Position numbers and translations under genes: made by a program. A stretch of DNA of 45,499 bases. Source: Cytophagales bacterium. Its GTDB lineage: Bacteria; Bacteroidota; Bacteroidia; Cytophagales; Cyclobacteriaceae. Positions 459 to 24,745 of the stretch are shown one piece after another. Numbering within the stretch: the stretch's first letter is position 1; each line of letters begins with the position of its first letter. The notes beneath the pieces were generated by a model. That model saw only the letters and a program-made list of their open reading frames with translations, was not told the origin of the DNA and searched no databases. The stretch is taken from contig JAKSDO010000219.1 in the NCBI GenBank assembly GCA_022360055.1, forward strand, positions 1 through 45,499, read 5' to 3'.

Positions 459-479
459 TTACATCTTGACAAAAAATAT

Positions 480-518: not shown

Positions 519-522
519 TATT

Positions 523-1128: not shown

Positions 1129-1147
1129 AAATTTTTATTCGAAAATT

Positions 1148-1164: not shown

Positions 1165-1166
1165 CT

Positions 1167-3345: not shown

Positions 3346-3355
3346 ATGAAAGAAG

Positions 3356-4994: not shown

Positions 4995-4996
4995 CC

Positions 4997-7218: not shown

Positions 7219-7377
7219 ATGAAACGGAAGTTGATCCGGTTCATCATCATTGGATTGGGCATTTTGACAGCCTTTCTCGCCATAAGGGTCAATGCCTGGG
7301 GGAGGCATGAGGTTGAACCCAAAATTAAACCTGGTTTTGAAGTTGGAGTGGCATTGAAAACACCAGTTTGCCCATAA
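7219..7377 (+). CDS. Small membrane protein, 52 aa (unknown function)
   Basis: The ATG follows the permease stop with no gap (TAGATG), and the stop lies four bases before the cyclase start. This seamless packing in an operon is the main evidence that it is translated. The product has a basic start (MKRKLIR), one hydrophobic segment (about residues 8-24, FIIIGLGILTAFLAIRV), then a short polar tail with one Cys. It could be a single-pass accessory subunit, or the truncated N-terminus of a once longer protein with a signal peptide. I recognise no family. Confidence 0.5.
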   Translation: MKRKLIRFIIIGLGILTAFLAIRVNAWGRHEVEPKIKPGFEVGVALKTPVCP

Positions 7378-7381
7378 GCAA

Positions 7382-8461: not shown

Positions 8462-8469
8462 GGTTTGGG

Positions 8470-8486
8470 ATGCCTTATTGAGGCAT
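8470..8486 (+). terminator. Weak hairpin after the efflux operon
   Basis: ATGCCT (8470-8475) pairs with AGGCAT (8481-8486) around a five-base loop, nine bases after the cyclase stop. No clear U-tract follows, so it is at best a weak terminator or an RNA-stabilising hairpin. Confidence 0.25.
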
Positions 8487-8504
8487 GATAAAATCGTTCT
8501 GAAG

Positions 8505-8585
8505 ATGGATGGCAAAGCGTTCAAACTGATTGCTGTAGAACTCGTAGAATCACATAAAACCGTAGCTGAAGTATCAAAGGAATTG
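8505..8585 (+). mobile_element. IS3-family OrfA transposase remnant
   Basis: Translation from ATG 8505 gives KAFKLIAVELVESHKTVAEV and then SKEL, closely resembling the N-terminal helix-turn-helix start of IS3-family OrfA (pattern FK..AV.LVESGK.VAEVAKEL). Similarity stops near 8585, after about 27 codons, and the frame runs on as unrelated sequence to a stop at 8630. The rest of the element (OrfB, right end) is absent. Immediately beyond the breakpoint lies a truncated hybrid two-component gene on the other strand, so this marks a recombination junction. Confidence 0.5.
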
Positions 8586-8874
8586 CTGTTATGTTATTTG
8601 AATCCAGTGAGCTGTGTCTGTAAATTGTAAATTCATATCCATCATATCAATTTAATCCATCACTAGTTCCAAACCACATATATCCTTTACTATCCTTGAA
8701 GATGGACGTGACACTCTTTTGTGACAGATCGTCCTTTACAGAAAGGTGACTAAAGGAGGTTGTCTTGCTTTGAGAAAGTAAAGCAGGGCTAAGAATAAAA
8801 AAACCAAAGCAAAATAGTATTATTGAAAATGATTTAGTACAAATCTCTATATTATATGAATGGATCTGAATCAT
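8586..8874 (-). pseudogene. Hybrid two-component regulator, 5' fragment with internal stop
   Basis: On the minus strand from ATG 8874 there is a signal peptide-like segment, then a start typical of HTCS propeller domains (FSHLSVKDDLSQKSVTSIF, GYMWFGTSDGLN). The frame meets TGA at 8647-8649 where Arg is expected (GLN-R-YDG), yet the same frame continues with YDGYEFTIYRHSSLDSNNIT, clearly the same domain. Similarity ends near 8586 at the IS3 remnant. So the gene has a nonsense mutation and has lost over 95 percent of its length. It is a different gene from the intact HTCS at 10826-14986. Its start overlaps the divergent tetR gene by 19 bases. Confidence 0.7.
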
Positions 8875-9455
8875 ATAATACCTGGCTTGAAACAGCTTAT
8901 CGACTCTTTGCGGAGGAAGGTCCGGAAAACTTTTCGATAAAAGCGCTTGCGCAGAAGTGCGGACTTCCCAGAACGAATTTCTATTATTATTTTGAAAACA
9001 AAGAAGAAATAATTGATAAAATTATTGAGCTACATTTTACAACAACTATCGAAACATTCAATGAAGAATTAAAAAAGCGACTACATACGTATGTCCCGGA
9101 TTTGTTTGTTATCCTTTATGATTTTAAGTTAGGAATTCAGTTTGCAAAACAGCTGTTCAAAAACAGGGAGATTCAAAAATATAACGACGCCTATAAAAAA
9201 GGTGTAGCTCTTTCTGCCGACATACTGATTCCAAAATTTAAAACATTTTTTGAAATAGACCTCTCCGATGGAATAGTTAAAACATTATGGTTTACCTTAG
9301 TAGACACCTGGTACTCAAGATTAAACTTTAATGATTTTTCTGTCGCTTCTCAATGCACTTTGCATTACGAAATCATAGACAGTGTTCTACCGCTTACGAG
9401 GAAAACTATTATTACACAAAACAATTCTAGCAACTCTTTCGACGCTCCTGTCTAA
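8856..9455 (+). CDS. TetR/AcrR-family transcriptional regulator
   Basis: This 199-residue protein has an N-terminal TetR helix-turn-helix (about residues 8-55: YRLFAEEGPENFSIKALAQK, CGLPRTNFYYYFENKEEII) and a helical effector-binding half with no recognisable subfamily signature. It is at the left of the catabolic island, convergent with the SDR gene and divergent from the broken HTCS fragment. Its reading frame is intact, so it may still regulate, perhaps the SDR gene or distant targets. No obvious dyad operator was found nearby. It is more AT-rich than the efflux operon to its left. Confidence 0.8.
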   Translation: MNGSESYNTWLETAYRLFAEEGPENFSIKALAQKCGLPRTNFYYYFENKEEIIDKIIELHFTTTIETFNEELKKRLHTYVPDLFVILYDFKLGIQFAKQLFKNREIQKYNDAYKKGVALSADILIPKFKTFFEIDLSDGIVKTLWFTLVDTWYSRLNFNDFSVASQCTLHYEIIDSVLPLTRKTIITQNNSSNSFDAPV

Positions 9456-9780: not shown

Positions 9781-10545
9781 CTAAAGTGCAGTGTAACCTC
9801 CGTCAATAATCAGATCGCTACCTGTCATATAGGACGAGGAATCACTAATAAGGTAAATAAAAAGCCCTACCAGATCTCCTGGTTTTCCTAATTTGCGCAA
9901 AGGAATTCTTGATTTCCATCCGGCATGATAAGACTTCATCTCCTCAACTAAATCTGTGGCAATATATCCCGGACTTACACTATTAACACGAATATTATTG
10001 CCAGCCCACTCTACAGCCAGAGCTTTTGTCAAGTGTTTTACCCCCGCCTTAGAAGCACAATAATTTGCTATTGTTTGCGGGGTATTTACTATATGAGCAG
10101 ACATTGAAGCTGTGTTTATAATACTCCCTCCAACTCCTTGTTTAACCATTGCCTGTGCTTGTGCCTGTGCGGCTAAGAATACCCCGTTAAGATTCACATC
10201 TATAACCTTTTTAAAATCTTCATAAGAGATATCAATAGCTTTTTCAATATTGGCTATTCCGGCATTATTCATTCCAAAATCTATCTGTCCAAAATCTGCA
10301 ATAAACGAATTCATCATATTATCCACAGACTCCGGATTAGTAACATCACATTGATAGGCAATAACTTTTACACTGTGCTTCCGTTCCAGTTCATCAGCTA
10401 GTTCTTTAGACTTTTCTACACGCACATCAACAAGTCCTAACATTGCGCCTCTGGCAGCTAATTCTTTTGCCAAATTACTTCCGATACCTCCCGATGCCCC
10501 TGTAATTATTCCTTTTTTTCCTTTGATACTAAATAATTCATCCAT
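9781..10545 (-). CDS. SDR-family NAD(P)-dependent dehydrogenase (sugar/polyol type)
   Basis: This 254-residue classical short-chain dehydrogenase has cofactor motif TGASGGIG (residues 15-22), NNAG (93-96), catalytic Ser in NTASMS (about 147) and the YxxxK pair Tyr162/Lys166 (NYCASK). Asp40 at the end of the second strand favours NAD(H) over NADP(H). Length and motifs resemble those of gluconate, sorbitol or arabinitol dehydrogenases, but the substrate cannot be read from sequence. It lies 280 bases downstream of the HTCS gene on the same strand. It could interconvert a polyol and a ketose feeding the kinase and aldolase of the operon on the other strand. Confidence 0.87.
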   Translation of the reverse strand: MDELFSIKGKKGIITGASGGIGSNLAKELAARGAMLGLVDVRVEKSKELADELERKHSVKVIAYQCDVTNPESVDNMMNSFIADFGQIDFGMNNAGIANIEKAIDISYEDFKKVIDVNLNGVFLAAQAQAQAMVKQGVGGSIINTASMSAHIVNTPQTIANYCASKAGVKHLTKALAVEWAGNNIRVNSVSPGYIATDLVEEMKSYHAGWKSRIPLRKLGKPGDLVGLFIYLISDSSSYMTGSDLIIDGGYTAL

Positions 10546-10825: not shown

Positions 10826-13800
10826 TCACACCAAATCGGGTGACAGACCAAATTGTTTTTTAAAACACTTTTTAAAATAATCTATGTCTTTAAACCCCAC
10901 TTTTTCTGCCACAAATGTATAATTGGCAGAATTCTGCTGCAGCAATTTCATAGCTTCGTTTAGACGGATAACACGTACATATTCAATGGCTGTTTTTCCG
11001 GTTAACCCCTTTATTTTTCTATAAAGTGTAGCGCGGCTCATTCCAATTTGTTTACCAAGTTCTTCTACCGAAAATTCAACTTCTTCCATTTTTAGCACTA
11101 CCATTTTCTCCAATTTTTCCAAAAATGCCCGGTCGAGGTTATTTAGTTTTTTTGATGTTATTTTTCCAACAGGTTTTTTTTGTAGTTGTTTCCAGATCCG
11201 TTCTCTATTTTCCATTAATGCCTGCATGCGCGCCAGCAAGATATCGGTATCAAATGGTTTCTCTATATAATCGTCGGCCCCACTTTCAAATCCTGAGAGC
11301 ACACTGTCTTTCCCCGACTTTGCAGTTAATAAAAGAACCGGCACGTGGCTTACTGAAATGTTACTTTTAATACGATTGCAAAATGTTATTCCATCCATTT
11401 TTGGCATCATGATATCCGACACAATAATATCTGGCACCAACTCCAAAGCCTTTTGCAAACCTTCTTCTCCATTATGAGAAATACTTACATAATACTTCTC
11501 ATCCAATATACTCCGAAGAAAAGAGCAGAGATCATAATTATCTTCAACGATCAATACCCTTGGTTTCCGATATTTTTGATTCTTGAATGATTCTAATACG
11601 TCTTTGTCTATGGCACTTTGTCCAGGTCGTTCCTCTGTTTCTACCTTTTCATCATTCCCGAACGTCGTTTCGATCAATGGAATTTCTACAATAAACCGGC
11701 TTCCCTTTCCTTCTTCACTTTCCACGGCTATTTTTCCACCATGCAATTCAACCATTTCTTTTGCTAATGATAAACCAATACCTGTTCCTGTTTCGGAGTC
11801 ATCGGAATTTACCTGATAAAAACGTTCAAAAACCTGTTGATGCTCCGACGATTTTATCCCTTTACCGGAATCTTCTACCTTAATTATCAGTGTTTTCGCT
11901 GTTTGGTCTTTTAAAATGATTATACCAATTTCGCCTCCGTTTGGTGTATATTTAAATGCATTGGAAAGTAGATTAAAAATTATTTTCTCCATTTTTTCCC
12001 GGTCAATCCAGACGGGTAAGCTTTCAAATTCTGCTAAAAGTTCAAATGAAATTTCTTTTCGGTTCGCCTCTTCATAAAACGAATACATTACACTTCTAAC
12101 AAAACTTATAATATCAGCCTTTTCAACCTTCAACTTTAAGACACCTCTTTCCTGTTTGCTAAAATCCATCATTTGCGTAATCAGTCGCGATAATATTTCG
12201 GCATTTCGTTTTATTAAGGACAGAACAGATTTATGTTTTTCCTGCAAATCCTTATCCTGTTGAATGTTTTCTAATGGTCCAAGAATTAAGGTCAATGGGG
12301 TTTTTAGTTCGTGCGATATATTCATGAAAAAGCGTTGTTTTAATGCGTTCAATTCGCGGTCCTTCTCGCGCTCCATATTTGCTACTCGCAGGTCTTCACC
12401 AAATTTCGCCTTGTTTTTATTGTATCGCCGCACAAAATAAAAAAGTGTTCCAATACCGATTACATACAACACAAATGCCCACCAACGCAGCCAGTACGGA
12501 AAATCGATATGCAGCTCTATTGTACTTTCAGGAATTTCGTCGCCGGGAACACCGGATATTGCTTTTACCCTAAACGTGTAATTACCCCCTCCAAGGTTAG
12601 TGTAGGTAGCAAAACGGTGGTTGGCATCGGCCATTTGCCAGCTACGGTTAAAACCATCCAGTTTATATTGATATGATATTTTCTCGGCATTGGAATAATC
12701 AAGGGCAGCAAATTCAAATGAAAAGCTGTTCTCGTTGTATTTCAAATCCAGTTCTTTTTGAATTGATATATCATTTTCAAGAAGTTTTCGACCGTGTATC
12801 CGTTCACCAACTTTCACCGACCGGTTAAACAATTTAAAATCGGTAATATGCAAGGCAGTTATTTGGTTGTATCGAAGTACTTTTTGCGGGGTAAAAGAAT
12901 TCACTCCTTGTGTCCCTCCAATAATAACCTGTCCTTTAGAATTAGTAAATACAGCGTTTGTGTTGAATTCGTTACTCAACAAACCATCATTTTCGTAGAA
13001 ATTGTAAAAGGTCCCGTTAATTTTGCTAAACATCGAAATTCCGTTTACCGAAGTAATCCACAGGTTTCCATGTTCATCGCCCGAAATTGCTTTGACCACA
13101 TTATTCACCAAACCATCACTTTCCGTATAAACTTTTATTTCATTGGTTTCGGTATCCAAACGATTTAGTCCGGCATCGGTTCCAATCCACAACATCCCTT
13201 CGGCATCAACAAATAACGAGTTTATCCAATTTCCCGACAAAGTACCTGTGATTTCCGGTTGCGAAAAGAACGTCTCAAATTTATTGTTACGATCCGGTTT
13301 GCTTAATTTATTTAACCCAAAAGCAGTGCCAACCCAAATATTTCCAGATTTATCCTCTGTAATTGCCCTGATATCGTTATTGCTTATCGATGAATTATTT
13401 GTTGCATCGTGTTTATAGTGTTCAAAATAATATTCACCGCGTTTTGCCACAACTAATTTATCCAAACCCCCTCCGGCTGTTCCTATCCACAAATTCCCAA
13501 GTCTATCGTTGTATAAAGACCTGATATCGTTATAGCTTACCGAATTTTGCGCCGGATTATTAATTGTAAATTTCGTAATGGTAGGCTGCTCAGAATCATC
13601 AATGAACTCAACCAAATTAAGTCCACCCCCCAAGGTTCCTGCCCACAATCTTCCCCAATTGTCGTAACTTAGTGCGTGTACAATATCACTTCCCAATTCA
13701 ATATTCCGGAAGATCATCTCTTCGGCATATTGATTTTCGGAACCAGGATCATTCTTCAAAATCGACTGATACAATCCACCACCGTTTGTGCCGATCCAGA

Positions 13801-14986
13801 GTGATTCATCGTTTTCGGCAATTGCGTACACATCCTGATTTTCAACATCTTCAAAAGCTTCATTTTTTATCGGTACAGTAGAAAATGTGGATTTATCCGA
13901 ACCAAATGAAAATACACCTCCGCCTGAGGTTCCAAGCCAAATTCGCTGCGAGCGATCTTCGTAGATTGCCCTTATATTATTACTTTTTAATCCAAACGGG
14001 GATGTGCGTTCCATTTTAATCTTCTCAAAAGATGCGTCTTCAAAACGAAAACGGTTAAGCCCGCCATCTTCGGTGCCCAACCACAGCTCCTTATTGCTTG
14101 CTGCCAGGATACTAATTACCCGGCTATCGGAAACGCCCTTTTCACTTCCCTTTTCTTGCCTGAAATATTGAAATTTTCCTTTCTGCTCATCCAACATTCC
14201 GGCACCACCGCCCCATGTCCCTACCCAAATATTTCCATTAAAATCTTGCTGAATAGAACGTACACAACTTAATGCCTGATAGTTTCCATCTTCCGGTTCA
14301 AATTGAAAATAATCAAAGAAAGGCTCAGAATCTTTATAGATTAAACGATTTAATCCGCCCCCTTCGGTGCCCACCCACATTGTTCCATTTTTATCTTCAA
14401 AAACCCAATGTACGTTATCGTTACTTAAACTTCCAGGTTTATTACCTGCTTTAAATTGAGAAAACGTTTGAGTAGCAGCGTCGAACTTATTAAGTCCACC
14501 ACCCTGAGTGCCCACCCAAATTTCACCCCGGCTATCGCAATACACTATCTCAATATTGTTGAAACTTAAATGCGATGAATCTTGTGCATAATATTGAGCA
14601 AACTGATTCGTGGCAATATGTAAGCGTGAAAGCCCTCGGGCAGTTCCGATCCACAAACCACCTTTTTGGTCGATACAAATAGATTTTACGAGATTGTGGC
14701 ATAAACTATTCGGATTGTCCGGAATAGACTTAAAAACTTTGAAATTGTTTCCGTCAAACCGGCAAAGGCCATCCATTGTACCAAACCACATAAATCCCAA
14801 CGAATCCTGAGTTATGCAATTTACGGTGTTATGAGAAAGTCCGTCGCGGATGGTGTACTGGTTGAAAATTGTTTTGGTTTGTTGGGCATTTATCACATAC
14901 GAACTCAGCAATAGGATATAGATTAAGAATAAACCCCTAACCTTTTCCCTTGAATTGTTCAATAAGATATTTCCCCTCTTAATCAT
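10826..14986 (-). CDS. Hybrid two-component system sensor-regulator (HTCS)
   Basis: This one-protein signalling system has 1386 residues. A signal peptide (about 14-34) is followed by two seven-bladed propellers made of Reg_prop repeats with the recurring motif W(V/I)GT-GGGL (about 40-760), then a Y_Y_Y domain (about 765-828). One transmembrane helix follows (about 830-853), then a histidine kinase with the H-box FFMNISHELKTPLT (His about 892), HATPase motifs, a receiver domain (IVEDN, phosphoacceptor Asp in SDIMMPKMDG near 1189) and a C-terminal AraC helix-turn-helix (about 1285-1386). Such proteins sense a periplasmic sugar and activate adjacent operons. It faces the cytochrome/aldolase operon across an intergenic region with phased direct repeats. 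All catalytic motifs look intact. Confidence 0.95.
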   Translation of the reverse strand: MIKRGNILLNNSREKVRGLFLIYILLLSSYVINAQQTKTIFNQYTIRDGLSHNTVNCITQDSLGFMWFGTMDGLCRFDGNNFKVFKSIPDNPNSLCHNLVKSICIDQKGGLWIGTARGLSRLHIATNQFAQYYAQDSSHLSFNNIEIVYCDSRGEIWVGTQGGGLNKFDAATQTFSQFKAGNKPGSLSNDNVHWVFEDKNGTMWVGTEGGGLNRLIYKDSEPFFDYFQFEPEDGNYQALSCVRSIQQDFNGNIWVGTWGGGAGMLDEQKGKFQYFRQEKGSEKGVSDSRVISILAASNKELWLGTEDGGLNRFRFEDASFEKIKMERTSPFGLKSNNIRAIYEDRSQRIWLGTSGGGVFSFGSDKSTFSTVPIKNEAFEDVENQDVYAIAENDESLWIGTNGGGLYQSILKNDPGSENQYAEEMIFRNIELGSDIVHALSYDNWGRLWAGTLGGGLNLVEFIDDSEQPTITKFTINNPAQNSVSYNDIRSLYNDRLGNLWIGTAGGGLDKLVVAKRGEYYFEHYKHDATNNSSISNNDIRAITEDKSGNIWVGTAFGLNKLSKPDRNNKFETFFSQPEITGTLSGNWINSLFVDAEGMLWIGTDAGLNRLDTETNEIKVYTESDGLVNNVVKAISGDEHGNLWITSVNGISMFSKINGTFYNFYENDGLLSNEFNTNAVFTNSKGQVIIGGTQGVNSFTPQKVLRYNQITALHITDFKLFNRSVKVGERIHGRKLLENDISIQKELDLKYNENSFSFEFAALDYSNAEKISYQYKLDGFNRSWQMADANHRFATYTNLGGGNYTFRVKAISGVPGDEIPESTIELHIDFPYWLRWWAFVLYVIGIGTLFYFVRRYNKNKAKFGEDLRVANMEREKDRELNALKQRFFMNISHELKTPLTLILGPLENIQQDKDLQEKHKSVLSLIKRNAEILSRLITQMMDFSKQERGVLKLKVEKADIISFVRSVMYSFYEEANRKEISFELLAEFESLPVWIDREKMEKIIFNLLSNAFKYTPNGGEIGIIILKDQTAKTLIIKVEDSGKGIKSSEHQQVFERFYQVNSDDSETGTGIGLSLAKEMVELHGGKIAVESEEGKGSRFIVEIPLIETTFGNDEKVETEERPGQSAIDKDVLESFKNQKYRKPRVLIVEDNYDLCSFLRSILDEKYYVSISHNGEEGLQKALELVPDIIVSDIMMPKMDGITFCNRIKSNISVSHVPVLLLTAKSGKDSVLSGFESGADDYIEKPFDTDILLARMQALMENRERIWKQLQKKPVGKITSKKLNNLDRAFLEKLEKMVVLKMEEVEFSVEELGKQIGMSRATLYRKIKGLTGKTAIEYVRVIRLNEAMKLLQQNSANYTFVAEKVGFKDIDYFKKCFKKQFGLSPDLV

Positions 14987-15111: not shown

Positions 15112-15161
15112 TGCAACATCTGTCCGACAGTTTGCAACATTCATCTGGCAATCTGCAACAT
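15112..15161 (+). promoter_or_regulatory. Three TGCAACAT repeats with 21-bp period, candidate HTCS binding sites
   Basis: TGCAACAT occurs at 15112-15119, 15133-15140 and 15154-15161, exactly 21 bp apart, so all three would lie on the same DNA face two helical turns apart. AraC-family DNA-binding domains bind direct repeats with this spacing (AraC I1-I2 are 21 bp centre to centre). The third copy ends 29 bases before the -7 element of the operon, next to the -33 position, as expected for an activator contacting polymerase. The adjacent HTCS has an AraC domain and is the obvious candidate ligand. Confidence 0.65.
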
Positions 15162-15190
15162 CCTTCTATATACAAATTATAAGCATCCGG

Positions 15191-15198
15191 TAATTTTG
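15191..15198 (+). promoter_or_regulatory. Promoter -7 element of the cytochrome/aldolase operon
   Basis: TAATTTTG fits TAnnTTTG, 23 bases before the ATG at 15221. A TTTG -33 box is lacking at the expected place, consistent with dependence on an activator bound at the upstream repeats. Confidence 0.5.
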
Positions 15199-15220
15199 AA
15201 AACCGGAAAAATTTAGAGGA

Positions 15221-18124
15221 ATGAATGGATTTATTACATACGGGAAACTACTTTTTATAATTCTGAGCACCACGCTGATTTCATGTACTTCAAAAAATCA
15301 GGAACAACAAAAAAAAGACTGGGTTAGCTACCTCATCGAACTCAAAAAACCGGATAAGCCGGAAGCCGATAAAGAGGAAGTCCGGGAGTTATTTAAAGAG
15401 TTCAGGACTGCGTATCCCTGGCACAGTTATAAACTAATTACCCAAAAAGAATTTGTAACCTGGGCAACCAGTGCGAACAAGGAACAATTTACAGAAAGCC
15501 TTCTTCAATCCAAACTAAACAAGCTTGAAGATAACAAAGCAATTTTCAAACGAGAAATTGAAAATATAAAAGCGCAAACAGAGCCGATCACAGCAAAACT
15601 TCTGCTGGCAGAAAAAGCTGTTCGTTTCCGCGATGACCTGCATTCGTTTAACAACATTAATTTTGAAGCGCTTGAAAAGGCCATTAATAATATTCATTCG
15701 CTCTTCCCAGATCACTACAATTATCAGGAATTTAGTTCGCAACTAAACAAACTGTCAAGGGAATATTCAGAAATCACAAAAATCATTCAGGTTAAAAATG
15801 AAATGGCAGATACGCAACTTGCTGCTTTTATCGGCCATTTCGAGGCAGTAAAAAAGGAGGCATTGCTTTCGAATCCATTAGTTGGCAACCAGCCTATTGT
15901 ATTTGTAACCCGTCGACAATATGCCCCCGACCATCATAATTCAGCAACACTTTTTCACACCAACGAAGTAAACACCAACAAGTACCGGCCCGGTGGTTCC
16001 ATGAAGATTATTGACCTGAGAAAAGAAGGGAAAATAACTACCTTGCTTAAAACTGCCGAGGGTGTTATCCGCGATCCGGAAATTAGCTATGATGGAAAAA
16101 AAATCCTGTTTTCGATGCGGAAAAACATTAAAGAAGATTACCACATTTATGAAATGGATACCGACGGGAAAAACCTGAGGCAGTTAACTGCAGCTGAAGG
16201 AGTTTCCGACATCGATCCGCAATATTTACCCGACGGCGGCATCGTGTTTTCCTCCACGCGCGAGCCCAAATACTGCATGTGCAACATTCATATAATGGCC
16301 AACCTGTTCAGGATGGAGGACGATGGGGCAAATATTACCCAATTGGGGAAAAGCACACTGTTTGAAGGGCACAGCGCCATAATGCCCGATGGCCGTATTT
16401 TGTATGATCGCTGGGAATACGTCGACCGAAATTTCGGCGATGCGCAAGGGTTATGGACAATGAATCCCGATGGTACCAACCAGGCCATTTATTTTGGTAA
16501 TAACACCAACTCGCCCGGAGGTTTCATCGATGCGCGGCCAATACCCGGGACCGACAAGGTGATTTCAATTCTCGGCTCGTGTCACGACCGTCCGTGGGGT
16601 GCGTTGGGAATTATCGACCGCAAAAAAGGACTGGACGGGAAAGATCCAGTAGAAATAACCTGGCCGGCCTCTGCCAAAGAACTGATTGGCAAAGGAAACT
16701 GGGATACGTTTAAGCAGGTAAAAACGCTTTACGAAGACCCTTTTCCGCTTAATGATACGTACTTTTTATGTTCCAGAACAATTGGATTGGGCGAGCAAAC
16801 GGGTCTATTCCTTATTGACACCTTTGGCAATGAACAATTGATTTACACAGAAGCGCCCGGATGTTACGATCCGGTTCCGATAAAACCACGCGAAAAAGAG
16901 TACAGTATTCAAGATAAACGCAACTACAAATCAGAAACCGGAAAATTCTATGTGCAGGATGTTTACCAGGGCACACATATGAAAGGCGTTGAGCGCGGTT
17001 CGGTAAAGTATTTGCGCGTGATCGAATCGGTGGAAAAGCGCAGTTGGACCCATCCGGCATGGAACGGACAGGGGGTGCATCGTCCTGCGATGAACTGGCA
17101 TAGTTTCGAATGCAAAAAAATATGGGGAACGGTTCCGGTTGAAGAAGATGGTTCGGTTTACGTTGAAGTTCCTGCCGACAAGTACGTTTATTTTCAGTTG
17201 CTTGACGAGAATAAAATGATGATCCAATCGATGCGAAGCGGAACCATGTTACATTCGGGCGAAATACTGGGCTGTATTGGTTGCCATGAAGACCGCAGAA
17301 TGGCGCCTCCTTCAACGCAATCGCAGGTTACACAAGCCCTAAAGTTACCTCCGCAAAAACTTGATGGATGGTACGGAGAGCCGAGGACTTTTGGTTTTGC
17401 GCAAGAAGTTCAACCAGTGCTAAACAAACATTGTATTGAATGTCATGATTACGGAAAAAAAGCGGGTGAAAAGTTAATCCTGTCAGGCGACCGGAATCCG
17501 TATTTTAATGCCTCGTATATTGATATGTATCTTCAAAAGGTAATCAAACCAATTGGTGCCGGCCCTGCGGAGATTCAGGAGGCTTATTCGTGGGGATCAC
17601 ACCCAAGTAAAATTATTCAGATGTTAAGAAAGGGGCATGCAAAAGTTAAATTATCTGAAGAAGAAATGGAACGTCTTACCACCTGGATTGATCTAAATGC
17701 AGTTTATTATCCTGATTTTATTTCGGCATACCCGGACAACACAGTTGGCCGAAGCCCAATTTCGCAACAAGATTTATATCAATTGGGGAAACTTACAAAT
17801 ACGGATTTTTCGGCACTAGGCGGGCACAACAGAAAGTTAAGGGCACAAATTACATTCGAACGCCCTGAGCTGAGTCCTTGTTTAAAAAATATCAAAGACA
17901 AAAATTCAACAGAATACAAAGAAGCACTGGAAATTATTATCAGGGGAAAGAATCAACTGGCACAAACTCCAAGATTAGACATGAAAGGTTTTGTGCCTTC
18001 TGAAACCGATAAAAAACGTATTGAAAAATACATGTACAGGCAAGAAGAAGAAAAACGTAACAGAACGGCTATTCTGGAAGGTAAAAAATATTATGATCCT
18101 GAGTTGGTAAATACGAAACAATAA
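15221..18124 (+). CDS. HzsA-related dihaem c lipoprotein with PD40-type propeller
   Basis: This 967-residue exported lipoprotein has a lipobox ending LISC at Cys22. An N-terminal helical region (about 30-220) leads to a beta-propeller with TolB/PD40-like blades (DPEISYDGKKILFSMR, IYEMDTDGKNLRQLT, DPQYLPDGGIVFSS). A C-terminal cytochrome region carries two CxxCH haem c sites, CIGCH (685-689) and CIECH (738-742). This layout matches proteins annotated as related to the hydrazine synthase alpha subunit; most occur outside anammox bacteria and their reaction is unknown, so no hydrazine chemistry is implied. First gene of the HTCS-facing operon. It probably handles electrons at the periplasmic or outer membrane surface together with the next gene's product. 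Confidence 0.82.
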   Translation: MNGFITYGKLLFIILSTTLISCTSKNQEQQKKDWVSYLIELKKPDKPEADKEEVRELFKEFRTAYPWHSYKLITQKEFVTWATSANKEQFTESLLQSKLNKLEDNKAIFKREIENIKAQTEPITAKLLLAEKAVRFRDDLHSFNNINFEALEKAINNIHSLFPDHYNYQEFSSQLNKLSREYSEITKIIQVKNEMADTQLAAFIGHFEAVKKEALLSNPLVGNQPIVFVTRRQYAPDHHNSATLFHTNEVNTNKYRPGGSMKIIDLRKEGKITTLLKTAEGVIRDPEISYDGKKILFSMRKNIKEDYHIYEMDTDGKNLRQLTAAEGVSDIDPQYLPDGGIVFSSTREPKYCMCNIHIMANLFRMEDDGANITQLGKSTLFEGHSAIMPDGRILYDRWEYVDRNFGDAQGLWTMNPDGTNQAIYFGNNTNSPGGFIDARPIPGTDKVISILGSCHDRPWGALGIIDRKKGLDGKDPVEITWPASAKELIGKGNWDTFKQVKTLYEDPFPLNDTYFLCSRTIGLGEQTGLFLIDTFGNEQLIYTEAPGCYDPVPIKPREKEYSIQDKRNYKSETGKFYVQDVYQGTHMKGVERGSVKYLRVIESVEKRSWTHPAWNGQGVHRPAMNWHSFECKKIWGTVPVEEDGSVYVEVPADKYVYFQLLDENKMMIQSMRSGTMLHSGEILGCIGCHEDRRMAPPSTQSQVTQALKLPPQKLDGWYGEPRTFGFAQEVQPVLNKHCIECHDYGKKAGEKLILSGDRNPYFNASYIDMYLQKVIKPIGAGPAEIQEAYSWGSHPSKIIQMLRKGHAKVKLSEEEMERLTTWIDLNAVYYPDFISAYPDNTVGRSPISQQDLYQLGKLTNTDFSALGGHNRKLRAQITFERPELSPCLKNIKDKNSTEYKEALEIIIRGKNQLAQTPRLDMKGFVPSETDKKRIEKYMYRQEEEKRNRTAILEGKKYYDPELVNTKQ

Positions 18125-18183
18125 AACAGACTTTAGAACCGGATGTTTGAGATCCACTCCTTGATACTCGATAGTCATATACA

Positions 18184-20013
18184 ATGAAAAAAATACTCTA
18201 CATAAACTTGATCATTCTTATTTGGCTGTTTACAGCTTGTGCAAATGAAAGCAACCGGGTGATGTCACCGAACCAAGTTGTTGCAGGCAAAACACAAAAC
18301 AAACTATTTGTGGCCGATGAAACAGCAAATCGGATTTCAATTATTAACGCCAAAACTTCCGGTATTGAAGGTCATATTTCGCTGGAAGCGACCCCCGGAG
18401 GATTAGTACTTTCTGCCGATGAAGCCAGGTTGTTCGTAACATTAACTGAACCACAAGGAAAATTGTTGGAGATAGATTGGGTAAGTGGAAAAATTACACG
18501 GTCATTAGCAATTGGTCATTCTCCAATGTCACCGGTAATTTCTACAGACGGTAAATCCCTCTTCTTGTGCAATCGTTTTAACAACAGTGTCAGCAAAATT
18601 GACCTTGAACGGTTCACCATTAAGAAAAACGCTGAAACCGACAGGGAACCTGTTGATGCTGCATTGCTTAAAAAGAAGGATTTACTTTTAGTGGCAAACC
18701 ATTTGCCAAATGGCAAAGCAAATGCCGATTATCATTCAGCAAAAGTATCTGTATTTAAGGCATCCACATTGGAATGTTTGAAGGAAATTTCTTTACCAAA
18801 TGGTTCAAATGCTTTAAATAGAATTGCAGTTTCGGCCGATGAAAAATTTGCCTATCTAACGCACATTCTGGCGCGTTACAATGTTCCTACCAATCAGGTG
18901 GAGCGAGGTTGGATAAATACAAATGCGTTGAGTATAATCGACCTTACAGACACATCTTACCTTTGTACCGTTATGCTCGACGATCTGGACCGTGGGGCTG
19001 CAAATCCTTACGACGTAAAATGCAGCGAGGATGGTAAGTCCATTTATGTTTCGCACACGGGCACCAACGAGCTTAGTATTATCGATTCGGAAAAGCTCCA
19101 CCAAAGGATAACGAACATTGCCAATGGCACACAGCCGACTCTTTATGCCACATCGTTACCCGACATCCAGAATGATTTGAGCTTTTTGCAAGACATCCGA
19201 GAAAGAATAGACCTAAAAGCAAAAGGGCCAAAGGGATTGACTTTTATTGAGAACAGGGTTTTTGTTTCGATGTATTTTTCTGGTTCTGTTGCAGAAATTG
19301 ATAGAGCAAATAAGAATTCGGTAAACAATATGGCATTGGGAGTGCAACCAAAACCGGATATGGCCAGATTAGGCAAAATGTATTTTAACGATGCAACATT
19401 GTGCAAACAACAGTGGCAAAGTTGCACAAGTTGTCACCCCGGAGATGCACGTGTTGATGCGTTAAACTGGGATTTACTAAACGACGGTATTGGCAACCCC
19501 AAAAATACCAAAAGCATGTTATTGGCACATGCAACCCCTCCTGCCATGATAACCGGAATTAGGCACAATGCAAATGTGGCGGTACGTGCAGGGATAGAAC
19601 ACATTTTATTTACCCATCAACCCGATAAAATTGCCGAAGCACTTGATGCTTATCTGGCGGGGCTTAGGCCTGTTCCCAGCCCATATTTGAGAAACGGAGA
19701 ACTCACTCAGTCAGCACAACGAGGAAAACAAGTCTTTGAAAAAGCCCAGTGTTCGCATTGCCATTCCGGGCCGTATTTTACCAATATGAAGAGTTATAAT
19801 GTCGGAGAAGGGACCGGTTTGGAAGAAGGGCGGAAGTTCGACACTCCATCCCTTGTTGAAGCCTGGCGGACCGCTCCATATTTGTACGATGGTAAAGCCC
19901 GGAATATTAAGGAAGTGATTACAATTTACAATACAAGTCAGCGACATGGGAAAACGGCTGATTTAACAGAACAAGAATTGGATGATTTAGTAGAGTATTG
20001 TTTGTCACTTTAA
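18184..20013 (+). CDS. YncE-like propeller fused to MauG/cytochrome c peroxidase-like dihaem domain
   Basis: This 609-residue lipoprotein (lipobox FTAC, Cys19) has an N-terminal beta-propeller of YncE/YVTN type (KLFVADETANRISIINAKTS; SKIDLERF) over about residues 35-390. A di-haem cytochrome c peroxidase/MauG-like domain follows, with haem sites CTSCH (414-418) and CSHCH (523-527) and the typical segment RKFDTPSLVEAWRTAPYLYDG. Members oxidise a partner protein or reduce peroxide; which applies here is unknown. It lies 59 bases after the HzsA-related gene, and both proteins carry a propeller plus two c-type haems, suggesting they act as a pair. Confidence 0.85.
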   Translation: MKKILYINLIILIWLFTACANESNRVMSPNQVVAGKTQNKLFVADETANRISIINAKTSGIEGHISLEATPGGLVLSADEARLFVTLTEPQGKLLEIDWVSGKITRSLAIGHSPMSPVISTDGKSLFLCNRFNNSVSKIDLERFTIKKNAETDREPVDAALLKKKDLLLVANHLPNGKANADYHSAKVSVFKASTLECLKEISLPNGSNALNRIAVSADEKFAYLTHILARYNVPTNQVERGWINTNALSIIDLTDTSYLCTVMLDDLDRGAANPYDVKCSEDGKSIYVSHTGTNELSIIDSEKLHQRITNIANGTQPTLYATSLPDIQNDLSFLQDIRERIDLKAKGPKGLTFIENRVFVSMYFSGSVAEIDRANKNSVNNMALGVQPKPDMARLGKMYFNDATLCKQQWQSCTSCHPGDARVDALNWDLLNDGIGNPKNTKSMLLAHATPPAMITGIRHNANVAVRAGIEHILFTHQPDKIAEALDAYLAGLRPVPSPYLRNGELTQSAQRGKQVFEKAQCSHCHSGPYFTNMKSYNVGEGTGLEEGRKFDTPSLVEAWRTAPYLYDGKARNIKEVITIYNTSQRHGKTADLTEQELDDLVEYCLSL

Positions 20014-20073
20014 AATGTGGATGCGGATATAAAATGAAAAAAGATAAAATTAGAAACTATAAAAAAATCAAAT

Positions 20074-21267
20074 ATGAACAATTTTGAATATTTTAATCCT
20101 GTAAAAGTAATTTTTGGAGCCGGCGAACTGAATAAACTTGCAAACGAAGCAAAACAGTTGGGGTCGAAAATCTGCCTCGTTTCATACAAAGAATTGGGTT
20201 TCCTAACACCTCTGCTTAAAAAGATTTCCGCTCAATTAAAAGGTGCCGAATTAAATGTTGTTTCGTTTTTCGAAATCGAGGAAAACCCGGAAATAAAAAC
20301 TTTAACACTGGGTGCTGAATTCTGTAAAACCGAAAATGTAGATTTGATTATCGGGATTGGTGGCGGAAGTGTGATGGACGGTGCAAAAGCTATGGCCGCC
20401 GGTGTTTATTACGAAGGTGAAATGTGGAATATGGTTTACAGTCGCCATGACGATGTAAAAACCGTTCCTCCGGAAAAAGCCTTACCGACAATCATGATAC
20501 CAACCCTTCCTGCAACGGGAAGTGAGATGAACCCATGTGCAGTTGTAAGCAGTGCCGAATTAAAAGAAAAGTCGTATATCTGGAGCCCGTGTATTTATCC
20601 AAAGGTTTCCATTATCGATCCGGAACTTACCTTAAGTCTTCCTCCCTATCAAACTGCATGTGCGGCGGCCGATACCATCTCTCATGTATTGGAAATTTAC
20701 CTGAATGGTGAAGAAGATTCAGACCTGCAACACTATTTTCAGGAAGGGGTAATGCGAACGGTTATTGACAACATTGAGAAAGTTCTGGAAAATCCGAATG
20801 ATATTTCGGCACGCTCGCATTTACAATGGGCGGCCACATGTGCCATTAATGGTTTTGCTTCTCCAGGCGATGCCTGGACCCCAATACACCAGGTTGCGCA
20901 CAATTTAACCTCGTTACATAGAGTTTCTCATGGCGCTTCTCTGGCTATTTTAATGCCATCGTGGATGGAAGCATTCAGTAGCCGTAAACCGGAACAATAT
21001 TTCCGTTTTGCAAAAAATGTAATGCAGGTAAACACCCATGGAAAAACTCAGGAGGAAGTTATTGGTGAAGGAATCGCAGCATTCAAAGCATTTTTACAAA
21101 AGATTTCTGTGCCAGTTTCTTTAAAAGAAGCCAACATCAAACAGTCTGACCTGGCAGGTATTTTGGATGGGGTTGTAAAAGTGAGTTTTGGAAATGATGG
21201 AGTTTTAGCCTGCAATCCCCCTGTTAGTAAAGAGGATGTGATGCAGGTGTTGACTTTGGCATTATAA
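20074..21267 (+). CDS. Iron-containing alcohol dehydrogenase (YqhD/BDH-like)
   Basis: This 397-residue group III alcohol dehydrogenase has an N-terminal Rossmann-like domain with GIGGGSVMDGAK (about 94-105) and an all-helical metal domain. Likely ligands are Asp200 and His204 (AADTISH) plus His272 and His286 (HQVAHNLTSLHRVSH), the same 14-residue gap as in YqhD. It is cytoplasmic and would reduce an aldehyde such as acetaldehyde or lactaldehyde, or oxidise an alcohol, with NAD(P)H. Lying directly before a DeoC-like aldolase gene, it is well placed to dispose of the aldehyde released there. Confidence 0.9.
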   Translation: MNNFEYFNPVKVIFGAGELNKLANEAKQLGSKICLVSYKELGFLTPLLKKISAQLKGAELNVVSFFEIEENPEIKTLTLGAEFCKTENVDLIIGIGGGSVMDGAKAMAAGVYYEGEMWNMVYSRHDDVKTVPPEKALPTIMIPTLPATGSEMNPCAVVSSAELKEKSYIWSPCIYPKVSIIDPELTLSLPPYQTACAAADTISHVLEIYLNGEEDSDLQHYFQEGVMRTVIDNIEKVLENPNDISARSHLQWAATCAINGFASPGDAWTPIHQVAHNLTSLHRVSHGASLAILMPSWMEAFSSRKPEQYFRFAKNVMQVNTHGKTQEEVIGEGIAAFKAFLQKISVPVSLKEANIKQSDLAGILDGVVKVSFGNDGVLACNPPVSKEDVMQVLTLAL

Positions 21268-21459
21268 AACAATCTCAACAAAGCTGCTCTAAAAATTTGG
21301 TTCATGCAAGAAACACTGAGAACTCCGGAAAGGATGTAAAAAAATTAACTTGAATTTAAAAACATCGTTGAGCTCTTTGCGCTTCTATACAACTTTACGG
21401 GAACCCAAATTTTACTTTTGGAACAACACCTTAACAGATTACTACATCATTATCAAGTT

Positions 21460-22146
21460 ATGGATATCAATAAAATAGCACGGATGATTGACCTTAGTTG
21501 CGTGCAGGCAAACAGTTCAATCCAGGAAATTAAAGAAGTGGCAGATTTTGCCAAAAAATACAACTGCATTTGCACATTTGCACTTCCGGCACACACTCCG
21601 ATACTTATTGAATTGGTAAAAGACTACCCACAAATTTTGGTGGGTGGTGTTGTAGGATTTCCTGACGGAGGGGCTACAACAAAAGGAAAAGTTGCCGAAG
21701 CCCATGAATTAATCGAAATGGGTGTTAATGAGCTGGATATGGTCATCAATATCGCCTGGCTGAAAAACAAGCAGTACGGACTTTTACTGAACGATATACG
21801 GTCAGTTGTTGATGAAGCCGGAGATATTCCGGTAAAAGTGATTCTGGAATGCCACTACCTGACCAATGAAGAAATAGTTAAGGCTTGTCAGATAGGTGTT
21901 AAAGCCGGTGTTTCGTTTGTTAAAACCGGAACAGGTTGGGCACCTACAGGGGCAACTCTTGAAAATGTAAAAATAATGAAAGACACAGTTGGTGATGCTT
22001 GTGAGGTTAAAGCAGCCGGCGGTGTTCGCAATTTGGAAACTTTACTTGCCATGAACAAGCTGGGAGCTACCCGTTTTGGGATTGGAATAAGAACTGCAAA
22101 AGCCATTTTTGAAGGAATGGAGCGTTCGGGAAGTGAGGTTTATTAG
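21460..22146 (+). CDS. DeoC-like (deoxyribose-phosphate aldolase family) class I aldolase
   Basis: This 228-residue TIM barrel belongs to the DeoC/LacD family. The Schiff-base lysine lies in FVKTGTGW, the second lysine in VKAAGGVR and the catalytic Asp in ELDMVINI, all conserved. The motif GFPDGGATTKGK differs from the usual GFPxG and VKTGTGWAP from VKTSTGF, so it belongs to a divergent subfamily and the substrate may not be deoxyribose 5-phosphate. The reaction would cleave a phosphorylated sugar to an aldehyde plus a glycolytic triose phosphate. An in-frame TTG at 21418 would add 14 residues; neither start has a clear ribosome site. It sits between the alcohol dehydrogenase and kinase genes. 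Confidence 0.8.
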   Translation: MDINKIARMIDLSCVQANSSIQEIKEVADFAKKYNCICTFALPAHTPILIELVKDYPQILVGGVVGFPDGGATTKGKVAEAHELIEMGVNELDMVINIAWLKNKQYGLLLNDIRSVVDEAGDIPVKVILECHYLTNEEIVKACQIGVKAGVSFVKTGTGWAPTGATLENVKIMKDTVGDACEVKAAGGVRNLETLLAMNKLGATRFGIGIRTAKAIFEGMERSGSEVY

Positions 22147-22183
22147 TTCCACGTTTGTTATCTGAAAACCCAACAATATTAAA

Positions 22184-23707
22184 ATGAACCGATACATAAT
22201 TGCGTATGATTTGGGAACCGGAGGTTGCAAAGCATCACTTTACAACATTTCCGGTAATTGTGTTGCCGACTCATTTATTTCCTGCGACACGGAATACCCA
22301 CATCAAGGTTGGCACGAACAAAAACCAACTGACTGGTGGGCTGCAGTGGTTCAATCCACAAAAAAACTTCTCCAGGAATCTCAAATACAAAAAAATGAAG
22401 TCTCTGCAATTGGAATTTCAGGGCACAGTTTGGGTTTGGTTCCGGTAAACAAAGACGGGAAGTTGTTGCGGAAAAGTGTACCAATCTGGTCGGATTCGCG
22501 GCCCACAGAAAAAGAACTTGATCCGTTTTTCGAAAAGATATCAGAAGAAGAATGGTATATGATTACCGGAAACGGTTTTCCTCCAAGTCTTTATACCGTT
22601 TTCAAATTAATGTGGCTACGGAACAACGAACCTGAAATTTTTGACGAGTTATATTCCATACTAGGAACCAAAGATTACATCAACTATCGAATGACCGGGA
22701 TAATGGCAACTGATTATTCCTATGCTTCGGGAACCGGCGTTTACGACCTAAAAAAATGGGAATATTCGGACAGGTTAATTGACGCCAGCGGTTTACCTCC
22801 ATCAATCTTCCCAACTCCGGTTGCATCTACCCAAGTACTGGGTACACTTACTGATGAAGCAGCAAAAGAACTTGGCCTTCATACAAATGTAAAAGTTGTT
22901 GCCGGAGGCGTAGATAATTCGTGTATGGCTTTGGGGGCACGTTGCTTTAAAGACGGACGGACTTACAATTCCCAGGGATCTTCGTCGTGGATTGCAGTGA
23001 GTTCTTCGGAACCTCTTTTAAATGTACTAAGCCGTCCTTATGTTTTTACTCATGTAGTCCCCGGATTATTTACTTCTGCAACTGCCATTTTTTCTGCAGG
23101 TACGAGTTTCCGTTGGCTGCGCGACAATATTTGCCTGCATTTAAAAGAAAAAGAAGGAAACATATGGGAAAACATGACAACACTGGCAGCAAAAGCTCCG
23201 GCAGGTTCGAATAAACTACTATTTAATCCCAGCCTGGCAGGCGGAACAATGATTGATAAAAGTGCCAACATTAGGGGGGCTTTCGCAGGAATAGATTTAA
23301 GCCATAAACAAAATGACATTATTCGCTCGGTGATGGAAGGTGTAGCTATGGGATTACGGGTTGCACTCGATGAGCTACGGGATTTAACAACAATTGAGGA
23401 TGAAATTACCGCTGTTGGAGGAGGGAGCAAAAGTGAATTCTGGCGGCAGATTTATGCCGATGTTTACAACGTAAATATCGTAAAAACCAATATCGACGAA
23501 CAAGCTGCAGCACTGGGAGCAGCGGCTCTTGCTGCAGTTGGGACTGGTATCTGGAAAGATTTTTCTATTATCGATGAAATCCATGTGACTGAATCGGTGA
23601 ATATACCAAACGAAAAAGATAATCAGACCTACGAAAAGCTTCTTCCCGTATATAAAACATTTTCAAACCATTTATCTGAAATTGGAGATCTGATGAGTAA
23701 AATTTAA
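22184..23707 (+). CDS. FGGY-family carbohydrate kinase (xylulokinase-like)
   Basis: This 507-residue sugar kinase has the N-terminal phosphate motif DLGTGGCK (9-16), the substrate-side segment AIGISGHSLG, the catalytic Asp in GGVDNS (Asp244) and the C-terminal nucleotide motif AVGGGSKSEFWRQI. It would phosphorylate a sugar or polyol with ATP in the cytoplasm. It looks closest to xylulokinases, but FGGY specificity (xylulose, ribulose, fuculose, erythritol, glycerol) cannot be assigned by eye. Next to an aldolase gene it likely makes that enzyme's phosphorylated substrate. It starts 37 bases after the aldolase gene. Confidence 0.88.
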   Translation: MNRYIIAYDLGTGGCKASLYNISGNCVADSFISCDTEYPHQGWHEQKPTDWWAAVVQSTKKLLQESQIQKNEVSAIGISGHSLGLVPVNKDGKLLRKSVPIWSDSRPTEKELDPFFEKISEEEWYMITGNGFPPSLYTVFKLMWLRNNEPEIFDELYSILGTKDYINYRMTGIMATDYSYASGTGVYDLKKWEYSDRLIDASGLPPSIFPTPVASTQVLGTLTDEAAKELGLHTNVKVVAGGVDNSCMALGARCFKDGRTYNSQGSSSWIAVSSSEPLLNVLSRPYVFTHVVPGLFTSATAIFSAGTSFRWLRDNICLHLKEKEGNIWENMTTLAAKAPAGSNKLLFNPSLAGGTMIDKSANIRGAFAGIDLSHKQNDIIRSVMEGVAMGLRVALDELRDLTTIEDEITAVGGGSKSEFWRQIYADVYNVNIVKTNIDEQAAALGAAALAAVGTGIWKDFSIIDEIHVTESVNIPNEKDNQTYEKLLPVYKTFSNHLSEIGDLMSKI

Positions 23708-23734
23708 TCAGTTAAAATCATAAAATCTAAAATC

Positions 23735-24745
23735 ATGGAATTCAACATTACAGAATTATTAGTTGCCTTTGCCGGGGGTATTTTTGGTGCGGCTATTGGC
23801 GCACTTCCCGTTTGGATATTGTGCGGGCTGGCAGTTTTGATCGGAGGGGCCATTACAATGGCTACAGGTAATGAGAGTTTTACAAACCTGGTTGCCTGGG
23901 GTTTATTTCTGGGGCCACACACTGCCTTTGCCGGTGGCACAGCAGCGGCAGCCTATGCAGCTAAAAAAGGAGAGCTGGAAAATGGGCGTGACATTCAAAC
24001 AGCACTTATTGGTTTAAACAACCCAAAAGTACTTTTTGTAGGCGGTATATTCGGGGCACTTGGTTACCTTCTGTTCTGGCTAATTATGCAGGTACCCAAT
24101 TACAGCGATCTGGCCTGGACAAACACCATTGCGCTGGCAGTAATACTAAATATGGTAATTACCCGCTTTGCTTTTGGAAAAACCGGTTTATTTGGAAAAC
24201 CTGCAAATGCTCAAAATCGTTGGGTTCCATCTGAAACAGGTTCGTGGGTTCCCTACCAATCAAAACCTATGCAATTAATTTTACTAGGTATTGCAGTTGG
24301 GGTCCCCGCTGCCTATTTAGCCGATGTACTTCCCGGAAGTGTTGGTATTACCTTTGGTTTTGTGGCATTTTTACTCATATTTATGCAGTTTGGATTTAAG
24401 GTTCCGGTAACACATCATATTGCGCTTTCCGCATCAGTAATTACGGTAGTTACAGGCGAAGTCGCCTGGGGAGTCGGTTTTGGTATCCTCGCAGCATTTT
24501 TAGGCGAATTATTTGCCTGCATTTTTGTATATCATGGCGATACGCACATCGACCCGCCAACAATGGCTTTGGTAGGAACCTTTACTTTGTTCCCACTCAT
24601 GGAACAATTTAAAGTATTCGAATTAAGTGAATACGTAATTTGGTTAATCGTGGTAGGAATTACAGCAGCAGGATATTTATTCCTGACTTCGTTGAAACAA
24701 CAAAAATTATTGCTGCGGTTATTGGTAAATAAAGCCACAAAATGA
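23735..24745 (+). CDS. Polytopic inner-membrane protein, candidate substrate permease (unknown family)
   Basis: This 336-residue, highly hydrophobic protein has about nine to ten predicted membrane helices. Glycine-rich segments recur (FAGGIFGAAIGALPVWI, FVGGIFGALGYLLFW, GVGFGILAAFLGELFA), which could reflect an internal duplication. A conserved-looking polar loop, VYHGDTHIDPPTMAL, sits between the last helices, where a charged HGD-H-D cluster in a membrane protein suggests a functional site. I do not recognise the family and no MFS, SSS or TRAP signature is visible. As last gene of an operon with sugar kinase and aldolase but no other transporter, it is the natural candidate for uptake of the pathway substrate. 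Confidence 0.75.
   Translation: MEFNITELLVAFAGGIFGAAIGALPVWILCGLAVLIGGAITMATGNESFTNLVAWGLFLGPHTAFAGGTAAAAYAAKKGELENGRDIQTALIGLNNPKVLFVGGIFGALGYLLFWLIMQVPNYSDLAWTNTIALAVILNMVITRFAFGKTGLFGKPANAQNRWVPSETGSWVPYQSKPMQLILLGIAVGVPAAYLADVLPGSVGITFGFVAFLLIFMQFGFKVPVTHHIALSASVITVVTGEVAWGVGFGILAAFLGELFACIFVYHGDTHIDPPTMALVGTFTLFPLMEQFKVFELSEYVIWLIVVGITAAGYLFLTSLKQQKLLLRLLVNKATK

Follow-up and report, generated by a model that had tools for sequence, protein, structure and literature searches.

Putative hydrazine-synthase-type haem proteins encoded with a carbohydrate kinase, an aldolase and an alcohol dehydrogenase in Bacteroidota

We analysed a 45,499-nucleotide stretch of DNA from a Cytophagales bacterium (GenBank assembly GCA_022360055.1, contig JAKSDO010000219.1; hereafter the window), in which six genes on the plus strand, at 15221-24745, face a divergent hybrid two-component system (HTCS) gene (10826..14986, minus strand). 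The operon encodes, in order, an HzsA-like dihaem lipoprotein (15221..18124), a second dihaem lipoprotein resembling a fusion of HzsB and HzsC (18184..20013; hereafter HzsBC), an iron-containing alcohol dehydrogenase (ADH; 20074..21267), a DeoC-family aldolase (21460..22146), an FGGY carbohydrate kinase (22184..23707) and a polytopic membrane protein of 336 residues (23735..24745). The source assembly comprises 7.5 Mb in 300 contigs, with the window on contig C109, and the nearest named relatives for the operon are Prolixibacteraceae (Bacteroidota). An earlier note on this DNA had described six plus-strand genes facing an HTCS, and our open reading frame (ORF) call (46 ORFs of at least 120 residues, antisense ones included) and a Pfam scan of 28 window proteins both agree with it. 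The aldolase frame is open from TTG 21418, but conservation makes ATG 21460 the more likely start; with this start the intergenic gaps are 59, 60, 192, 37 and 27 bp, four of them short, as that note had claimed, and one not. Its statement that SusC, SusD, glycoside hydrolases and sulfatases are missing holds for the 28 scanned proteins, among which the SusC/SusD pair of a polysaccharide utilisation locus is also absent. Below we show that the partnership of these genes is real, recurring and unusual, and that the pathway outlined in the earlier note is plausible.

Each of the two cytochromes carries a lipobox cysteine and two CXXCH motifs. The HzsA-like protein consists of a propeller-like part, an HZS_alpha middle domain and a C-terminal haem part with the motifs CIGCH and CIECH (C685-H689 and C738-H742). 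Its HZS_alpha domain scored well over the cut-off (PF18582, E 1.8e-32, 112 bits versus 26.6), and it also matched the alpha chain of the hydrazine synthase (HZS) structure 5C2V (5c2v_A, E 4e-8) and, far below the NCBIfam cut-off of 800 bits, the alpha-subunit model NF052339 (E 3e-18, 64.9 bits). The second cytochrome joins a propeller to a cytochrome c peroxidase (CCP)/MauG-like domain with the motifs CTSCH and CSHCH. Its best NCBIfam model was the beta-gamma fusion NF052342 (E 1.4e-33, 116.1 bits versus a cut-off of 1250), and it matched both 5c2v_C (E 4e-23) and 5c2v_B (E 2e-16). The "propeller/MauG-like" label of the earlier note is right as far as it goes, given a CCP_MauG match over part of the domain (E 3e-9), two c-haem motifs as in CCP-type proteins and a match to the MauG equivalog TIGR03791 that stays under its cut-off (E 5.6e-10, 38.9 bits versus 443.85); it needs correcting in that the protein is no less a homologue of an HzsB-HzsC fusion than it is MauG-like. 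Because of this, the two cytochromes, which together cover all three subunits of anammox HZS, are predicted to be a pair of the hydrazine synthase type placed among carbohydrate genes, a point that we regard as weightier than the pathway outline.

Residues named as important in HZS are alpha-Tyr591, which serves as a ligand, gamma-His144 and gamma-Cys165, the last forming a third haem bond (available text of Hagglund et al. 2025, PMC12758564). At the alpha-Tyr591 position, four residues past the CXXCH histidine, the window HzsA has R693, in a register that we extrapolated past this histidine, where the structural alignment ends; no tyrosine was found within six residues past the histidine in 8/8 aligned HzsA proteins (alignment A6) or in 15/15 of an overlapping set (A7). 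With the numbering of the paper transferred to the chain through the CXXCH histidine, gamma-His144 aligns to I456 and gamma-Cys165 to L475 of the window HzsBC, and all six aligned HzsBC proteins have Ile or Val at the former position and Leu or Gln at the latter. I456 also occupies the position of the catalytic Trp of CCP and MauG, which is Ile or Val in the same six proteins. With these active-site residues lost, hydrazine synthesis is very unlikely. The beta-loop residue E240, which is Glu, Asp or Gln across the six, might be the counterpart of the HZS magnesium ligand, and we keep it as a lead only.

We defined window-type clusters as those whose kinases form a single supported FGGY clade and whose aldolases form a single supported DeoC clade, the two clades splitting alike where the trees are resolved. 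Five clusters belong to this type: those of the window, Puteibacter (L009/L134) and Prolixibacteraceae JC049 (L010), and loci L077 and L082. The full gene set, with the HTCS and the operator motif described below, recurs in Puteibacter, so that the neighbourhood search proposed in the earlier note did find the set in another genome. HzsA is adjacent in 4/5 clusters, the iron ADH is present in all but L082 (77% identity to the window enzyme in Puteibacter, 76% in JC049 and 68% in L077; 66% in L080), and the membrane gene is present in all but L077, with the L082 copy, in a broken frame, reaching the end of its contig. In Puteibacter and JC049 the ADH gene is preceded by a gene for a small propeller protein that looks secreted; the window operon lacks this gene. 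Puteibacter has nine HZS_alpha proteins (L134-L142), several of them beside sulfatases, HTCS or SusC/SusD; one of these loci, L141, combines HzsA with FGGY, DeoC, a zinc ADH and two short-chain dehydrogenases/reductases (SDRs), its FGGY and DeoC lying outside the supported clades.

Two further versions of the cluster were observed. In six loci (L046, L091-L095) from the family of genomes G347 and G890, the order is rearranged to a DUF6905 pair, FGGY, a zinc ADH of the medium-chain dehydrogenase/reductase type in place of the iron ADH, DeoC, HzsA, HzsBC and a small propeller; the HzsA frame is split in L095. The DUF6905 membrane gene pair (L046 3964-4823) replaces the 336-residue membrane protein, and a literature search on DUF6905 gave no paper. 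The third version combines the kinase DhaK/DhaL and an aldolase of the type of the thiolase LsrF with HzsA and HzsBC (L035, L037, L045, L108 and L109) or with HzsA and no visible HzsBC (L090 and L116). The LsrF of L037 scored 440 bits versus a cut-off of 297, and the remaining LsrF-type copies were assigned by BLAST. Annotated lsrF, DhaK and DhaL genes also mark loci of Parabacteroides distasonis (NZ_OY725748.1) and of Aureibacter tunicatorum plasmid pAT4. The fourth plasmid record with 80% coverage was that of Anoxybacillus, at 26%. In P. distasonis, a gut commensal, one block (L188 16066-31112) contains IclR, HzsBC, two hypothetical proteins, a SUMF1-annotated HzsA-like protein, ccsA, DhaK, a DAK2 protein, lsrF and a WD40 protein, with no LsrK annotated within it. 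An IclR gene adjoins HzsBC in the DhaK-LsrF versions, and in P. distasonis a response-regulator gene also adjoins IclR. Cytochrome maturation genes of the ResB/CcsA type lie within the DhaK-LsrF clusters (L037 and the P. distasonis ccsA), which supports true c-haem proteins. HzsA carries fused NPCBM carbohydrate-binding domains in L035 and in L132, the homologue in JC049, and a fused FGE-sulfatase-like domain in L035 and L189.

Other genes and proteins recur around these loci. A chorismatase/RidA-like protein (FkbO_Hyg5-like_N) accompanies the DhaK-LsrF-HZS cluster (L037 13431-14525, L045 5879-6973, L189 15731-16912), and related proteins of 230-250 residues recur beside HzsA (L141 3153-3881, L035 3270-4001, L037 12525-13286), the L141 member giving a weak D-lyxose isomerase match under the cut-off (E 0.002). 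Loci L096 and L114 hold HzsA-HzsBC pairs without sugar genes nearby; L096, a short contig, encodes two HzsA proteins, the second bearing three haem motifs, and in L114 one three-motif HzsA adjoins HzsBC.

To gauge how frequent the partnership is, we counted HZS_alpha proteins and their neighbours. They occurred in 64/123 genomes of the family of G347 and G890, in 17/395 genomes of a phylum sample (13 over cut-off) and in 6/395 of a class sample (4 over cut-off), the latter two including the source genome itself, and in 0/14 control genomes. We then compared 62 HzsA neighbourhoods, 4 from the source genome and 58 from others, with 20 control stretches at round coordinates in five genomes of the same family; 40 of the neighbourhoods came from the family of G347 and G890 and were picked mainly by HzsA length class, and BLAST also detected HzsA in 61/62. 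With detection references taken from the clusters themselves, a kinase together with an aldolase was found in 18/62 neighbourhoods versus 0/20 controls. The pair was present in 13/17 loci with HzsBC versus 5/45 without it (Fisher p 1.6e-6, a value that is descriptive only because the loci are related rather than independent, were partly hand-picked by HzsA type, are in several cases cut by contig ends and were scored with references from the same clusters).

The enzymes of the window operon fit the kinase, aldolase and dehydrogenase logic of the earlier note. The best NCBIfam model of the iron ADH is the alcohol dehydrogenase PRK15138, under its cut-off, which we take to be YqhD. The aldolase scored over the DeoC cut-off (TIGR00126, 196.2 bits versus 117.3) and keeps D107, K169 and K198 (numbered from TTG 21418), presumably the catalytic Asp and two Lys. 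In the window DeoC, GIGIRTA replaces the TSSG-type loop. The window-type DeoC proteins retain the catalytic residues but lack the C-terminal Ser-Ser loop that we take to bind phosphate; the L046-type DeoC has TSSG. The proposed cleavage to a triose phosphate is plausible, except that the usual phosphate loop has been lost in this subfamily of DeoC. Further DeoC copies lie outside these clusters in 7/7 genomes tested. The nearest model for the kinase was XylB, under its cut-off (TIGR01312, 357 bits versus 380.25).

The 336-residue membrane protein gave no Pfam or NCBIfam match when the window member was searched, and hhalign with few sequences found no link to DUF6905 or DUF1097, nor between its two halves. 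A structure predicted from 3 sequences was of low confidence (pLDDT 38). The protein is rare, with 1/241 genomes in the order (itself), 1/123 in the family of G890 and 8/395 in the phylum, itself included. We inspected the neighbourhoods of six of the seven distant phylum matches (L203-L208). In L206, L207 and L208 the membrane gene adjoins a GlpK gene over the cut-off and a glycerol-3-phosphate dehydrogenase-like gene under it; it lies on the same strand in L208, there also with DhaM, DhaL and DhaK, and on the strand opposite its glpK neighbours in L206. No glpK-type neighbours adjoin it in L203-L205. These neighbours in 3/6 loci favour the importer role that the earlier note had given the protein; a small-polyol or ketose permease is the simplest reading, and the family of L206-L208 is a candidate unrecognised glycerol or dihydroxyacetone permease.

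The window HTCS combines in one chain a propeller sensor (Reg_prop), Y_Y_Y, HisKA, HATPase_c, a receiver (Response_reg) and an AraC-type helix-turn-helix (HTH_18). Puteibacter has an HTCS in the same place (58% identity), and one of 53% identity is found at the JC049 cluster. Between the HTCS and HzsA genes, three copies of TGCAACAT stand 21 bp apart (15112..15161, plus strand, the first at 15112), forming a presumed HTCS operator. The exact double motif gave two overlapping matches in the window versus a mean of 0.00 in 100 shuffles, and no other site in the source assembly. The same arrangement precedes HzsA in Puteibacter, where the third copy reads TGAAACAT. Five double-motif sites occur in that genome: between HTCS and HzsA (L134), by other HTCS genes (L145, 6085; L146, 5982), upstream of SusC (L144, 7857) and upstream of an SDR gene, pointing away from it (L143, 5914). 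JC049 lacks the double motif, and one single copy precedes its metabolic cluster. This distribution suggests that the double motif may be a wider HTCS operator type, and its presence in both the window and Puteibacter supports the HTCS control proposed earlier. The single promoter that had also been proposed is not shown: a sigma-70 scan gave no excess over shuffles (22 versus 23.6), and a terminator scan likewise gave none. TAATTTTG at 15191-15198 fits what we take to be the Bacteroidota -7 consensus.

Further genes flank this region. An SDR oxidoreductase gene (9781..10545, minus strand; adh_short_C2, E 3e-66) lies 3' of the HTCS gene. The Puteibacter SDR at L143 is its 84% orthologue, JC049 has no close orthologue (best 34%), and the double motif was not found upstream of the window copy; we keep the SDR as a possible further regulon member, as a lead only. 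An efflux cluster adjoins at 355-9455, with two TetR proteins, an outer-membrane efflux protein, an HlyD-type protein, two ABC ATPases, two ABC-2 membrane proteins and a guanylate-cyclase-domain protein (Pfam scan), and a Group II intron match (D1-D4-3, RF02001, 62.7 bits) at 1-142 is cut by the 5' end of the window.

We propose, with about even confidence, that the locus is a catabolic operon, switched by the HTCS, for the use of a small sugar or polyol that is probably a deoxy compound, and that it is equipped with a periplasmic HZS-like carbohydrate oxidoreductase. The HzsA-like and HzsB-HzsC-like lipoproteins would form an HZS-type complex with four haems, located periplasmically or on the cell surface, that may oxidise or reduce a carbohydrate. 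The resulting compound would enter through the 336-residue permease and be phosphorylated by the FGGY kinase, as the family of this enzyme suggests. The DeoC-family aldolase would then split it into a triose phosphate and a two-carbon aldehyde, which the iron ADH would reduce. The DeoC and LsrF versions both predict a two-carbon unit and a triose phosphate as products of a phosphorylated deoxy compound, probably with five carbons. We therefore suggest that this compound is made or unmasked by the haem complex before it reaches the cytoplasm. The proposal is favoured by the full set with HTCS and operator motif in Puteibacter, the two differently built cluster versions, the kinase and aldolase counts, the supported FGGY and DeoC clades, the further DeoC in 7/7 genomes and the NPCBM domains fused to HzsA.

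Several observations weigh against this proposal. A kinase and an aldolase are lacking near 44/62 HzsA loci, among them L079, L081 and L083, where HzsA without partners lies among housekeeping genes, and near 4/17 HzsBC loci (L036, L096, L114 and L132). HzsBC is present in 2/5 window-type clusters, the L082 contig ending at HzsA. On Aureibacter plasmid pAT2, HzsBC lies beside IclR, and neither a kinase nor an aldolase is annotated within the 29.7-kb stretch. Support for joining the window-type and L046-type kinases is weak (80/59), and the altered phosphate loop of DeoC makes a 5-phosphate substrate uncertain. SusC is not enriched near HzsA (20/62 versus 9/20 controls), and therefore no general link to polysaccharide utilisation loci is shown. 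The relatedness and partial hand-picking of the loci count in the same direction. The earlier note had named two outcomes that would tell against it, a set not conserved in other genomes, or cytochromes and metabolic genes found separately and never adjacent. The set is conserved elsewhere, but the second outcome appears in part in JC049, whose four metabolic genes and HTCS have no adjacent cytochromes, an HzsA (63%) and HzsBC (49%) pair lying elsewhere in that genome (L132).

The JC049 arrangement, the partnerless HzsA genes of L079, L081 and L083 and the CCP/MauG-like C-terminus of HzsBC would all fit a different reading, in which the cytochromes form a general module for periplasmic electron transfer or peroxide handling that was carried along with the operon, and the four metabolic genes suffice by themselves as a pathway for a deoxysugar or polyol. 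We consider this rather unlikely, given that HzsBC accompanies a kinase and an aldolase in 13/17 loci and in three differently built clusters, that 6/6 aligned HzsBC proteins have Ile or Val in place of the CCP/MauG Trp, and that JC049 retains a related HzsA-HzsBC pair. Ordinary 2-deoxyribose salvage with unrelated neighbours would account for a DeoC over the TIGR00126 cut-off and for an ADH that could reduce acetaldehyde. It is nonetheless improbable: another DeoC is present in all seven genomes tested, the DeoC subfamily here has lost the TSSG loop, the neighbours recur across families, and the kinase is of the FGGY type, whereas deoxyribokinase is of the ribokinase type.

We attach a similarly low probability to the haem proteins and the small propeller sensing or capturing a substrate and signalling to the HTCS without catalysis. 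Propeller-rich lipoproteins adjoining an HTCS and the NPCBM fusions are what such a role would predict, but the HTCS has a propeller sensor of its own, four haem motifs are unusual in a sensor, and in the DhaK-LsrF versions HzsBC adjoins IclR, though P. distasonis also has a response-regulator gene beside it. Finally, matches to all three subunits raise the idea of a true hydrazine synthase or another anammox-type nitrogen enzyme. We rejected true anammox function and regard this idea as extremely improbable, since scores fall far below the NCBIfam cut-offs, the alpha-Tyr591, gamma-His144 and gamma-Cys165 positions are not conserved and the partner genes encode sugar enzymes.

Extending the proposed catabolic role further, we raise the tentative and rather doubtful idea that the HZS superfamily consists at its base of periplasmic carbohydrate oxidoreductases. 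The complexes of Bacteroidota, including gut Parabacteroides, would then feed FGGY-DeoC or DhaKL-LsrF modules with a glycan-derived sugar product that is split to a two-carbon unit and a triose phosphate, and anammox HZS would have been recruited from such an enzyme. The question bears on the origin of HZS and on the function of its non-anammox relatives, for which published work, in its available parts, notes the absence of key residues and suggests that other substrates are used, naming none. The recurrent tie to a kinase, an aldolase and a dehydrogenase provides a first testable role for HZS-like haem complexes, with Puteibacter caeruleilacunae, Parabacteroides distasonis and Aureibacter tunicatorum as named organisms for testing. 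It also points to a candidate new sugar pathway, whose presumed operator and regulator offer a handle for finding the inducer.

Among known systems, the window shares a divergent HTCS and operator-like repeats with HTCS polysaccharide utilisation loci and differs from them in the absence of SusC, SusD, glycoside hydrolases and sulfatases among its 28 scanned proteins. Fucose and rhamnose are degraded by an FGGY kinase, an aldolase and an iron-ADH lactaldehyde reductase, an enzyme logic that the window operon shares; it differs in having a DeoC-family rather than a class II aldolase, in its added cytochromes and in that no isomerase was found in the operon. Autoinducer-2 degradation uses LsrK and LsrF. 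An LsrF over the cut-off in a sister cluster and the FGGY kinase of the window recall this pathway, but the sister clusters pair DhaK/DhaL with LsrF, and the window has DeoC instead.

HZS homologues are a further comparison. Literature searches of open-licence PMC text found no published link of these homologues to a sugar operon. Low-similarity HZS homology is shared with the hzs-like genes of Planctomycetota and KSB1 metagenome-assembled genomes, for which the authors suggest a wider family of HZS-like enzymes that use other substrates (Suarez et al. 2023, PMC10732223); the available text mentions no carbohydrate pathway for them, and the word "aldolase" is absent from its main text. Non-anammox homologues have been divided into clades I-IV; beta-gamma homologues are already reported from Bacteroidota, and genes for alpha and beta-gamma homologues lie together in Planctomycetota and in a small number of further species (PMC12758564, as far as its text is available). 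In that text, gamma-144 is Trp in clades I-III and in CCP/MauG, unlike the Ile/Val of the window pair, and its main text contains neither the word "aldolase" nor the word "sugar". The window pair departs from HZS itself in the three active-site positions given above and in its place in a sugar-enzyme operon. The arrangement of HzsA beside a fused HzsB-HzsC has been described outside anammox bacteria (available text of PMC12758564), and the window pair shares with HZS (5C2V) and these homologues an alpha protein beside a fused beta-gamma protein, two CXXCH motifs in each and propeller domains.

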